From: Bifidobacterium breve
Lineage (GTDB): Bacteria > Actinomycetota > Actinomycetes > Nanopelagicales > Nanopelagicaceae
Reading direction: 5' to 3'
DNA: 64,000 nucleotides
NCBI GenBank assembly: GCA_945885625.1
Contig: CAMCYS010000001.1
Coordinates: forward strand, 1-64,000
The translations under genes and the position numbers were made by a program. This document shows positions 26,892 through 55,860 of this stretch, one piece after another. Every line of letters begins with the position of its first letter. The first letter of the stretch is position 1. The notes under the pieces are model-generated. The model ran no database searches and had not been told where the DNA came from. It was given only the letters and a program-made list of their open reading frames with translations.

Positions 26892-27140
26892 TTAAGCGGT
26901 TGGTTCGAGATTCTCGATAGTTAGCAAACCTTCATTGATTTCACGAAGTGCTATTGAAAGTGGCTTCTCGTGGACATGCGTCTCGACTAGTGGGCCAACA
27001 TATTCAAGTAAACCTTCGCCAAGTTGTGAGTAATACGCGTTGATCTGGCGTGCGCGCTTTGCAGCGTAGAGAACCAAGCTGTACTTAGAACCGGCCTTAT
27101 CGAGCAGTTCGTCGATAGGTGGATTTGTAATGCCGTCCAT
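26892..27140 (-). CDS. rpoZ: RNA polymerase omega subunit
   Basis: [44 protein letters not shown] and adjacency to gmk/coaBC. Confidence 0.93.
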
Positions 27141-27194: not shown

Positions 27195-28061
27195 TCAAGA
27201 GGCAAAGGATACCAGTTCGCTTAGAACCTGGGTTACCGAGTGATTTACGATGCGACGGTCAAAATTGGGGGCATGAGCGAGTTCTTCCTGCGCCAATGCC
27301 AGCCGGTGCGCCCTTCGCTCTGGCGAATCTGTGCCGCGAGCCTCAAGTCGAGTAACCAACTCTTCCCATGATGGTGGCTCTAAAAATACCAAAATTGCTT
27401 CGGCGCTAACTTTTCGTACTTGTTCGGCGCCAGCTATATCAATCTCCAACAGCACATTCTTCCCACGCGCTAGGGCAGCTTCAACTTGTGACTTTGGCGT
27501 CGCGTACTTCGCGCCAGCAAATTCAGCCCATTCCAAAAAATCACCGGCGGACTTACGCGCTTCAAACTCGGCATCAGAAATAAAGAAATAATCAACCCCA
27601 TCTGATTCGTTATGACGCGGAGATCTAGTCGTAGCACTTATTGACACATAAAAGTTCGCCTCTTTGCGAAGTTCTTTCGCAACGGTACTTTTGCCAACTC
27701 CGCCAGGCCCCGAAAGAACTAGCAATTTTCCCCGCTCGACCAGTGTCGGAGCAACAAACTCGGCCATCAATGCCGGCAATTGTTTAGTGCCTAGTCCTTG
27801 AATTCGTCGAGTCGGTGAGATATTCAATCTCTCCATGACTGATCGCGCTCTAACTTTTCCAACACCCGAAATTGATTCTAAGAGCTCGAACACTCTCATC
27901 TTAGCTACCGCTTCATCACTTTTACTTAACTCGAAAACTTGGCCTAGCGAATACTTTCCACTTTTAATCAGCGCTTTTACTTCTGCTCTTCGCTTTCTAG
28001 CAGCGCCAGCTTTGGCAAGAGCTAACGCGCGATCTTCGGGCGATAGTTGCGGAGGCTGCAT
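27195..28061 (-). CDS. gmk: Fusion protein: N-terminal mIHF-like DNA-binding domain + C-terminal guanylate kinase
   Basis: Residues ~1-100 (LSPEDRALALAKAGAARKRRAEVKALIKSG...VGKVRARSVMERLNISPTRRIQGLGTKQLPALM) resemble actinobacterial integration host factor; residues ~110-288 have LVLSGPGGVGKSTVAKEL, SISATTRSPRHNESDGVDYFFIS, LLEIDIAGAEQVRK. Confidence 0.93.
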   Translation of the reverse strand: MQPPQLSPEDRALALAKAGAARKRRAEVKALIKSGKYSLGQVFELSKSDEAVAKMRVFELLESISGVGKVRARSVMERLNISPTRRIQGLGTKQLPALMAEFVAPTLVERGKLLVLSGPGGVGKSTVAKELRKEANFYVSISATTRSPRHNESDGVDYFFISDAEFEARKSAGDFLEWAEFAGAKYATPKSQVEAALARGKNVLLEIDIAGAEQVRKVSAEAILVFLEPPSWEELVTRLEARGTDSPERRAHRLALAQEELAHAPNFDRRIVNHSVTQVLSELVSFAS

Positions 28062-28070
28062 GGGCTAAAT

Positions 28071-28778
28071 CTATCGGGCTAAGAGCGGTTCACAAATCTC
28101 TAGCAAGTTGGTGCTGAAGGCGGTTTCGCCTTGACTCCAAAATCGGGTCAATGGACGACCAATAACAACGTAACTGGCTCCGGCTTGAATCGCGGCTAAT
28201 GGCGTCATAGTGCGAACTTGATCATCAATTGGTGCACTTGGATCAACTGGACGAACGCCTGGGGTAATGATTGCTGGCGCAACACCGATCGCAGCACGTA
28301 TTGCCGAGACCTCCATTGGAGAGCAAACAATTGCGCTAGCGCCGGCCTGAATTGCCAATTTTGCGAGTCCGACAGCGCTATCTAGCGCGTTGCTGCGATA
28401 ACCGATTTCGACCAAATCTGAATCAGCTAAACTCGTCAAAATAGTTACTGCAGTGACCTCTGTGCTCGGGAGTTGTTGGGCGGCTGCAGCGATCATCGCT
28501 TGGCCACCAGATGCATGTACCGTTAAAAATCTAGGTCTTAGTTGCGCAACTGTAGCTGCTGCTTGCGCTACCGTATTAGGAATGTCATGCAATTTTAGAT
28601 CAAGAAAAAGGTCTAGCTCATGATCGGCGACAACTTCGCGAACACCTTCAGCTCCAAAATTAAGAAAGAATTCGAGACCCAACTTAATCCCAGATATGTG
28701 CGGAGCAACTAATTTCGCCCAACTCTTTGCGATCTCGAGATCTGAGGTATCAGTAGCTAAAATGATGGGTGCTTTCAT
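28071..28778 (-). CDS. pyrF: Orotidine-5'-phosphate decarboxylase
   Basis: ILATDTSDLEIAKSW, LFLDLKLHDIPNTVAQA, TPGVRP, YVVIGRPLT. Confidence 0.95.
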   Translation of the reverse strand: MKAPIILATDTSDLEIAKSWAKLVAPHISGIKLGLEFFLNFGAEGVREVVADHELDLFLDLKLHDIPNTVAQAAATVAQLRPRFLTVHASGGQAMIAAAAQQLPSTEVTAVTILTSLADSDLVEIGYRSNALDSAVGLAKLAIQAGASAIVCSPMEVSAIRAAIGVAPAIITPGVRPVDPSAPIDDQVRTMTPLAAIQAGASYVVIGRPLTRFWSQGETAFSTNLLEICEPLLAR

Positions 28779-53697: not shown

Positions 53698-55860
53698 CTA
53701 ATTATTAAAGGTGCGATACACGTCGTAAACACCTTCAATATTTCGTACCGCACTGAGTACGGCGTCTAGATGCGTAGCATCAGCCATTTCGAAGGTGAAT
53801 CTAGAAATTGCAGTGCGATCTCTTGACGTTGTAACTGATGCGCTCAAAATATTCACGTGCTGCTCTGATAATGTGCGAGTGACATCTGCAAGTAGTCTGG
53901 CTCGATCAAGCGCCTCGACTTGGATATTAACTAGAAATACACTCGCTGCTCCAGCTAACCATTTAACCCCGACAACACGTTCGCTCTGATGTGTCTTAAG
54001 GTCGCCAGCATTGATGCAATCGCCACGGTGAACTGAAACTCCATTGCCTTTAGTTATAAAGCCCATAATCACATCGCCCGGAACGGGTGTACAACAACGC
54101 GCCAGCTTGACATAAACATCGCCAATTCCAGCAACTTCGATCGAACTACTTGAACGTCTGGTGGTTTGAACTCCGGTTGGAAAGGTTGGAACAGTAGCTT
54201 CGGGGTGTGAATCTTCCTCCCCCATTGAAGCGATCAATTTCTCGATAATCGATGCTGATGAGACATGTCCATCTCCAACGGCGCTGTATAAAGCAGAGAT
54301 ATCGGGGTAATGCAGTTCGTGAGAGAGCTCTAACAATGCGTGCCCGGCAAAAATCTTCTGTAGCGGTAAGCCAGCCTTGCGCATCTGACGAGCAATTGAT
54401 TCTCGACCAGCTTCAATCGCTTCCTCGCGACGTTCTTTGCTGAACCACGCTTTGATCTTCGAGCGAGCCCGTGGACTCTTTACAAAATTCAGCCAATCAC
54501 GACTTGGTGCAGCATGTTCACCCTTATTGATAACCACTTCGACAACATCACCATTGTTCAACTTTGACTCCAGTGGAACCAGACGGCCATTCACTTTTGC
54601 GCCAGCGCAACGATTGCCCACATCGGTATGCACCGAGTAGGCGAAGTCCACGGGCGTTGATCCACCCGGAAGCGCGATGACACTTCCTTTAGGTGTGAAG
54701 ACGAAAACTTCTGGTGAGCCCAAATCAAAACGTAGTGAATCTAAAAACTCAGATGGATCTTCAGTCTCCTTCTGCCATTCGTGTAATTGACGTAACCAGA
54801 GCATCTCAGGTGACGAGGAGTTGGCTTCGCTACCTTGCTTATATTTCCAATGCGCAGCGATACCGAACTCAGCACGCGAATGCATGTCGTAGGTACGGAT
54901 CTGAATCTCAATTGCTTTACCGCTCGGACCAATCACAGTGGTATGAAGTGATTGATAAAGGTTGAACTTTGGCATCGCAATGTAATCCTTGAACCGACCA
55001 GGCACTGGTGACCAACGAGCGTGGATCGCGCCAAGAACTGCATAGCAATCACGGACATCTTCGACTAATACCCGAATGCCAACTAGATCGTAAATGTCAT
55101 TGAAGTCGCGACCACGGACCACCATTTTTTGATAGACACTATAAAAGTGTTTCTGTCGCCCGGTAACTGTGCACTTAACGCCATCGACTAGAAGATCTGA
55201 TTTTACAGCTTCTATAACTTCATTAGTTAAGGTGACTCGGGCTGGATTTCGCTCAGCTACTAGCCGCGAAATCTCTAAAAACTTCTTCGGTTCAAGTACC
55301 TCGAAGCTCAAATCTTCTAGCTCCCACTTAATAGCGTTCATGCCTAATCTGTGCGCAAGGGGGGCGTAGATATCGAGAGTCTCGCGCGCTTTTCGCTCGG
55401 CGGATTCGGGTGAAACAAACTTCCAGGTACGGGCATTGTGAAGCCGGTCAGCCAACTTGATTAATAGGACTCGAATATCTCGAGACATCGCAACAATCAT
55501 TTTTCGAACTGTTTCAGCTTCTGCGGTCGGCCCGTAAGTTAACTTATCTAGCTTTGTGACACCATCAACCAGAAGTGCAATCTCTTCGCCAAAGTCTTTA
55601 CGCAATTGGGTCAATGAATAACTTGTATCTTCAACTGTGTCATGTAGCAACGCGGCAATTACAACTGCTTCGTTTAAACCAAATTCGGCCAAGATTGCAG
55701 CAACCGCTACCGGATGAGTTATGTAATCTTCACCGGATTTACGAAGTTGACCATGATGTGCCTCTTTAGCTACCAAGAACGCGCGCTGTAGATTCTCTAA
55801 TTTATCGCTCGGATGATGCTCGGTTAAAGCACTAACCACCGGCGCTAACAGAGTGTCCAT
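53698..55860 (-). CDS. rel: Bifunctional (p)ppGpp synthetase/hydrolase RelA/SpoT
   Basis: VIAALLHDTVEDTSYSL (HDxxED), synthetase YQSLHTTVIGPSGKAIEIQIRT, TGS and C-terminal ACT domains. Confidence 0.97.
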   Translation of the reverse strand: MDTLLAPVVSALTEHHPSDKLENLQRAFLVAKEAHHGQLRKSGEDYITHPVAVAAILAEFGLNEAVVIAALLHDTVEDTSYSLTQLRKDFGEEIALLVDGVTKLDKLTYGPTAEAETVRKMIVAMSRDIRVLLIKLADRLHNARTWKFVSPESAERKARETLDIYAPLAHRLGMNAIKWELEDLSFEVLEPKKFLEISRLVAERNPARVTLTNEVIEAVKSDLLVDGVKCTVTGRQKHFYSVYQKMVVRGRDFNDIYDLVGIRVLVEDVRDCYAVLGAIHARWSPVPGRFKDYIAMPKFNLYQSLHTTVIGPSGKAIEIQIRTYDMHSRAEFGIAAHWKYKQGSEANSSSPEMLWLRQLHEWQKETEDPSEFLDSLRFDLGSPEVFVFTPKGSVIALPGGSTPVDFAYSVHTDVGNRCAGAKVNGRLVPLESKLNNGDVVEVVINKGEHAAPSRDWLNFVKSPRARSKIKAWFSKERREEAIEAGRESIARQMRKAGLPLQKIFAGHALLELSHELHYPDISALYSAVGDGHVSSASIIEKLIASMGEEDSHPEATVPTFPTGVQTTRRSSSSIEVAGIGDVYVKLARCCTPVPGDVIMGFITKGNGVSVHRGDCINAGDLKTHQSERVVGVKWLAGAASVFLVNIQVEALDRARLLADVTRTLSEQHVNILSASVTTSRDRTAISRFTFEMADATHLDAVLSAVRNIEGVYDVYRTFNN

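Follow-up and report, generated by a model that had tools for sequence, protein, structure and literature searches.

In an actinobacterium of the freshwater family Nanopelagicaceae (acI), the nucleoid protein mIHF, an actinobacterial integration host factor, and the enzyme guanylate kinase (Gmk) are encoded as one polypeptide of 288 residues. The gene lies in a stretch of 64,000 nucleotides (positions 1 to 64,000 of contig CAMCYS010000001.1, assembly GCA_945885625.1), referred to here as the window, and was pointed out in an earlier note made from the letters of the window alone. Comparison with related genomes makes it likely that the fusion arose through loss of a stop codon, that both activities have been kept, that the window organism has a single, tethered product, and that the tether is a passenger coupling. 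The parts of the gene are as follows.

27195..28061, minus strand: mIHF-guanylate kinase fusion gene, 288 aa in a single unbroken frame, with homologues of its own genus also in frame
27756..28052, minus strand: actinobacterial IHF (S13-like H2TH) domain, residues 4-102 (NF041260, PF22525; 4itq/6tob)
27732..27755, minus strand: linker, residues 103-110, variable in sequence and length and without a conserved start codon in its own clade (64 genes of genera g1 and g25, g1 being the window's genus)
27204..27731, minus strand: guanylate kinase domain, residues 111-286 (TIGR03263; Foldseek top match 1s4q)
27687..27710, minus strand: P-loop GPGGVGKS, residues 118-125, read from the translation
27765..27767, minus strand: Met99 codon, put forward in the earlier note as an internal start; Shine-Dalgarno (SD) score 0, not conserved (Leu in L002 and L003)

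Both domains score above the curated cut-offs of their families. The IHF part matches the NCBIfam model actino_IHF (NF041260) over residues 4-102 with 119-121 bits (E 9.5e-35; cut-off 60 bits), and residues 32-102 match the Pfam S13-like H2TH family PF22525 with 91 bits (cut-off 27). The kinase part, residues 111-286, matches the guanylate kinase model TIGR03263 with 210-211 bits (E 2e-62; cut-off 160 bits), and Pfam concurs. The nearest solved structures by sequence are those of Streptomyces coelicolor sIHF (4itq, E 1e-25), mIHF (6tob) and Mycobacterium tuberculosis Gmk (1znw). The description in the earlier note of one frame joining mIHF to a complete guanylate kinase with a P-loop therefore holds, as do its coordinates, its domain boundary, its position for the internal ATG and the mIHF-likeness that it saw in residues 1-100 (119 bits in the profile search). 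A profile search of the window genome (1.44 Mb, assembled in 27 contigs) matched each family once only, in this fusion, and detected no second mIHF or Gmk outside it. The same was true of all complete fused genomes tested: their one mIHF and one Gmk are the two parts of the fusion.

The fusion is shared by the relatives of the window organism. One search gave a full-length, in-frame match without an internal stop in 63/63 own-genus genomes, single-contig genomes included; in a second search the own-genus genomes that lacked a fusion match were incomplete (57-82%). The same unbroken frame is found in relatives at 90% and at 59-67% identity and in IMCC26103 (CP015604.1), and a record named Candidatus Planktophila has the same kind of fusion. 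Within the window's family, here f1, the genes are fused in g1, g25, g26, g27, g29, g32, g33, g35 and g37. The fusion is thus lineage-wide, a matter that the earlier note had wished to see checked: it is present in every own-genus genome with a full match and in eight further genera of the family. The frame shows no frameshift or missed stop and its N-terminal part matches the mIHF profile, in keeping with that note, but two genes are present in several of the family's remoter genera (g28, g30, g31, g34, g36 and g38). As a separate observation, locus L173, from a metagenome-assembled genome record titled Bifidobacterium breve, holds a fusion of acI type whose junction matches that of L006; its label is very likely wrong. 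In L061-L063 (g33) the linker exceeds that of other acI genera by about 12 residues.

The same architecture occurs outside the family. It was found in all 10 genomes checked of family f35, one with the gene broken by a contig end, as well as in g86, a genus of family f33. Named Microbacteriaceae loci were fused in 11/11 cases (Curtobacterium, two of Leucobacter, Frigoribacterium, Planctomonas, Frondihabitans, Pseudoclavibacter, Microbacterium, Naasia, Agreia and Gulosibacter), and f35 is therefore most likely Microbacteriaceae. These fusions have the domain order and single frame of the window fusion but are not its closest kin in the tree; they have other linkers and lack an internal start where gmk formerly began, and their mIHF domain is 36% identical to the outgroup consensus, as compared to 48% in the window's genus. 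Separate mihF and gmk genes were seen in Streptomyces, Mycobacterium, Arthrobacter, Cellulomonas, Frankia and others, which agrees with the earlier note's statement that the two are adjacent but separate in the first two of these. An apparent fusion in genome G054, where both matches report a 363-aa open frame, was rejected, as a domain search puts the domains in different frames and hence in separate genes. Literature searches that combined mIHF or IHF with guanylate kinase or gmk turned up no paper on the fusion, which is new to searchable papers, though the proteins must already be in databases as guanylate kinase. The class of the actino_IHF model at NCBI, "equivalog_domain", suggests that its curators had already met this domain within longer proteins.

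The gene neighbourhood indicates how the fusion came about. In the window the fusion stands in a row of minus-strand genes, pyrD-pyrF-[fusion]-rpoZ-coaBC-metK-priA, the last two of which were identified from their translations. Its immediate neighbours are these:

28071..28778, minus strand: pyrF, the upstream neighbour, with 9 bases between its stop and the ATG of the fusion
26892..27140, minus strand: rpoZ (RNA polymerase omega), the downstream neighbour, from domain matches and conserved gene order

The order pyrD-pyrF-[mihF-gmk]-rpoZ-coaBC is conserved among relatives and is ancestral. The M. tuberculosis operon mihF-gmk-rpoZ (Rv1388-Rv1389-rpoZ) has the same two proteins in the same order and co-expressed, but as two separate genes, and there deleting mihF has polar effects on gmk and rpoZ (PMC6155035). 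In relatives with separate genes the two mostly lie within about -13 to +50 nt of each other, and several pairs are in frame with one stop between them. In the unfused genera of the window's family most pairs abut directly, run into each other by a few bases, or are in the same frame and separated by one stop codon; many genomes from other classes of the phylum likewise show an in-frame pair separated by a single stop. Because so many separate pairs share a frame, one stop codon often divides the two states, and fusion arises through its loss.

The number of such events was estimated from trees. A two-domain tree of 77 rows requires four state changes: two in f1, one in f35 and one in g86. In f1 the separate-gene genera g30 and g34 fall between two fused groups, and a single fused clade is not rejected (approximately unbiased test, p 0.097), so that the pattern could reflect two fusions or a single fusion later undone by fission. 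A tree of flanking genes (short search, moderate support) recovers the same nesting with three changes in f1, and places g33, with its longer linker, beside g34, which suggests that g33 is possibly a further, separate fusion event. From these trees the fusion arose at least three times, in Nanopelagicaceae (two to three switches, one possibly a fission), in Microbacteriaceae and in one further lineage (g86). It looks real, old and repeated, and its way of origin ordinary. The earlier note had attributed the merger to genome compaction; this cause is not supported, since the fusion originated repeatedly and occurs in Microbacteriaceae genomes of 2.8-4.3 Mb, and the genes already abut in relatives.

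Junction codons, compared across the fused genes of the nine fused f1 genera, differ between two groups that together hold 106 genes: the window's own clade (g1 and g25) and a sister clade, clade 2, of 42 genes from g26, g27, g29 and g32 (loci L035-L040, L044-L046, L058-L060, L108 and L112-L140). With codons counted back from the P-loop, an in-frame ATG, GTG or TTG is present at positions -17 to -14 in 42/42 clade 2 genes, against 28.9 expected from amino acids and synonymous usage (P 7e-10); after thinning at 70% identity it is present in 16/16, against 9.8 expected (P 3.5e-5). Codon -15 encodes Leu, Val, Met or Ile, and where it encodes Leu or Val it is TTG or GTG in 26/32 genes, as compared to 22% elsewhere (Fisher 3.6e-12). 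It ranks first among 61 Leu/Val columns; the runner-up lies at the start of the gene itself and serves as a positive control that had not been planned. All 12 genes without a start at -15 have one at -14 or -17, a compensatory shift in position. An SD match of at least 5 bases, partly overlapping the conserved Glu motif at the end of mIHF, precedes the start in 22 of the 42 genes, versus about 5% of control positions. The internal start is located where the former gmk gene began. Clade 2 most likely makes both the full-length fusion and free Gmk, and it probably represents a fusion half way, in which the stop has been lost and the second start kept under selection. A second in-frame start that yields a short isoform is known in the bacterial genes infB and clpB and is the mechanism proposed for clade 2; unlike those, the clade 2 start would be a relic of a once separate gene, and its two products would have different functions.

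Residue conservation and structure prediction suggest that both parts work. An AlphaFold2 model built with 41 fusions as input has a mean predicted local distance difference test (pLDDT) score of 93.6, falling to about 71 at residues 101-110, and a predicted template-modelling score (pTM) of 0.64. It describes two well-folded domains, as predicted, on a flexible link with their mutual placement uncertain. Its IHF part is a helical domain of high pLDDT, and a Foldseek search with the model gives M. tuberculosis Gmk 1s4q as first match (E 1.8e-21, TM-score 0.87 by target length). In comparison with that enzyme (Rv1389; 1s4q, 1znw), the fusion retains the full domain at 45-46% identity, with P-loop and GMP-site residues kept, but bears a DNA-binding domain at its N terminus. 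Residues G118, P119, V122, G123, K124, S140, R146, R149, E152, Y158, E177, R238, R242 and R253 are invariant in the 41 fusions; their roles in Gmk are in the P-loop and in GMP binding and the lid.

The N-terminal domain is a member of the family of S. coelicolor sIHF (4itq, 6bek) and mycobacterial mIHF (6tob), and it retains R85 and R86. These belong to the RRxR segment of the outgroup proteins, whose basic residues are reported from mIHF mutant work to bind DNA; its third Arg, at position 88, is Gln in the fusion. Position 88 is Q or G in unfused relatives also (Gln in unfused g30), so its change is not due to the fusion. Between close species of f1, the ratio of nonsynonymous to synonymous substitution rates (dN/dS) is mostly 0.02-0.1 in both domains. 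Both are under strong purifying selection, and decay of the mIHF domain after fusion is not seen in the window lineage. The mIHF domain is more diverged than Gmk in most fused groups, and likewise in unfused g30. DNA binding and GMP kinase activity are both predicted to be retained.

Taken together, mihF and gmk would have been co-transcribed and abutting in an operon pyrD-pyrF-mihF-gmk-rpoZ, and loss of the mihF stop codon would have joined the cell's sole mIHF to its sole guanylate kinase through a short flexible linker. In the window organism Gmk would then be carried on a mobile DNA-binding nucleoid protein, with both made 1:1, whereas the sister clade would have free Gmk in addition to the full-length fusion. 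The tether would most likely be a tolerated passenger coupling, with no evolved sensor. That a fused load can be tolerated follows from the replacement of essential msIHF by fluorescent-protein fusions with near-normal growth (PMC10028186). Several points weigh against this account. The long product might yet be cleaved after translation, and the repeated, family-wide retention of the fusion could mean that the tether is useful, not merely tolerated. For the clade 2 start, the codon window was picked after inspection of the alignment, which makes the P values optimistic; related genes are not independent (hence the thinning at 70% identity); and in roughly half of the internal starts the SD match extends over just 3-4 bases.

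A functional tether is unlikely, in our estimate, although it has arguments in its favor. sIHF is a monomeric DNA binder (PMC10028186) and Gmk is a dimer in the bacteria studied (PMC6783271), and a dimer of the fusion would therefore be predicted to hold two DNA-binding heads. Oligomerization of Gmk would make monomeric mIHF bivalent and able to bridge DNA, and/or binding of GMP, ATP or ppGpp would tune nucleoid binding. A RelA/SpoT (p)ppGpp synthase/hydrolase is encoded in the window at 53713-55782, on the same strand as the fusion, so ppGpp could act on the kinase part. Retention of the fusion in at least three lineages and in whole families also favors a function. Against it, linker sequence and length drift freely, no co-variation or interface is shown, the pTM indicates no fixed arrangement, the sister clade seems to retain free Gmk, and separate genes sit between fused groups in the tree. 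Similarly doubtful is a wider proposal, in which a one-codon switch, turned repeatedly, ties the kinase to the nucleoid protein, the two-start gene is the intermediate, and mIHF becomes bivalent or responsive to nucleotides through the tether.

It is improbable that in the window organism, too, free Gmk is made from an internal start. TTG and ATG codons are present at 27765-27770, part of the genus has an ATG at -16, and six clade genes have a start there with an SD match of at least 5 bases. However, 34 of the 64 clade genes lack any start codon between -17 and -14, and neither a general start pattern nor a conserved in-frame start at the junction was found in these genes. The window ATG has no SD, as the earlier note had remarked, and is missing from the two closest relatives, which are 90% identical; it is therefore rejected as a start in the window organism. 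The note's suggestion of production from two starts thus fails for the ATG it named but finds its counterpart in the strongly conserved start at the ancestral gmk position in the sister clade. Since the junction start is unconserved in the window lineage, a single tethered product is expected.

Cutting of the long product at the linker after translation, to give two normal proteins, is less probable still. The linker is the least certain and most variable part, but it differs even among close species and contains no conserved cleavage motif, and a protease site would have to be kept in each separate origin. A sequencing or assembly error (a lost stop or a frameshift), which the 27 contigs of the window genome might bring to mind, is refuted by the same frame in dozens of independent genomes, several of them single-contig, and in named Microbacteriaceae isolates.

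The supply of GTP and dGTP depends on Gmk. Cells with the fusion lack a free version of both genes and so offer a clean experiment of nature on two questions: can an enzyme ride on a nucleoid protein, and do guanine nucleotides affect the structure of the chromosome? Microbacteriaceae, an easily grown soil and plant family, carry the fusion, so it is readily testable; how widely it occurs, the lack of free copies and the existence of a half-fused clade are reasons to take it to the bench.

Two minor observations concern the gene families more generally. Near-complete actinobacterial genomes with gmk but no mIHF match (G227, G318 and G350 of f33, g60; G040 and G197 of f5; G278 of f38) contrast with the essentiality of mIHF in mycobacteria (PMC6155035). 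Genome G123 (contamination 3%) has two partial gmk copies at contig ends (L108 at the end of C83, L109 at the start of C28), probably a result of assembly or mixed strains.
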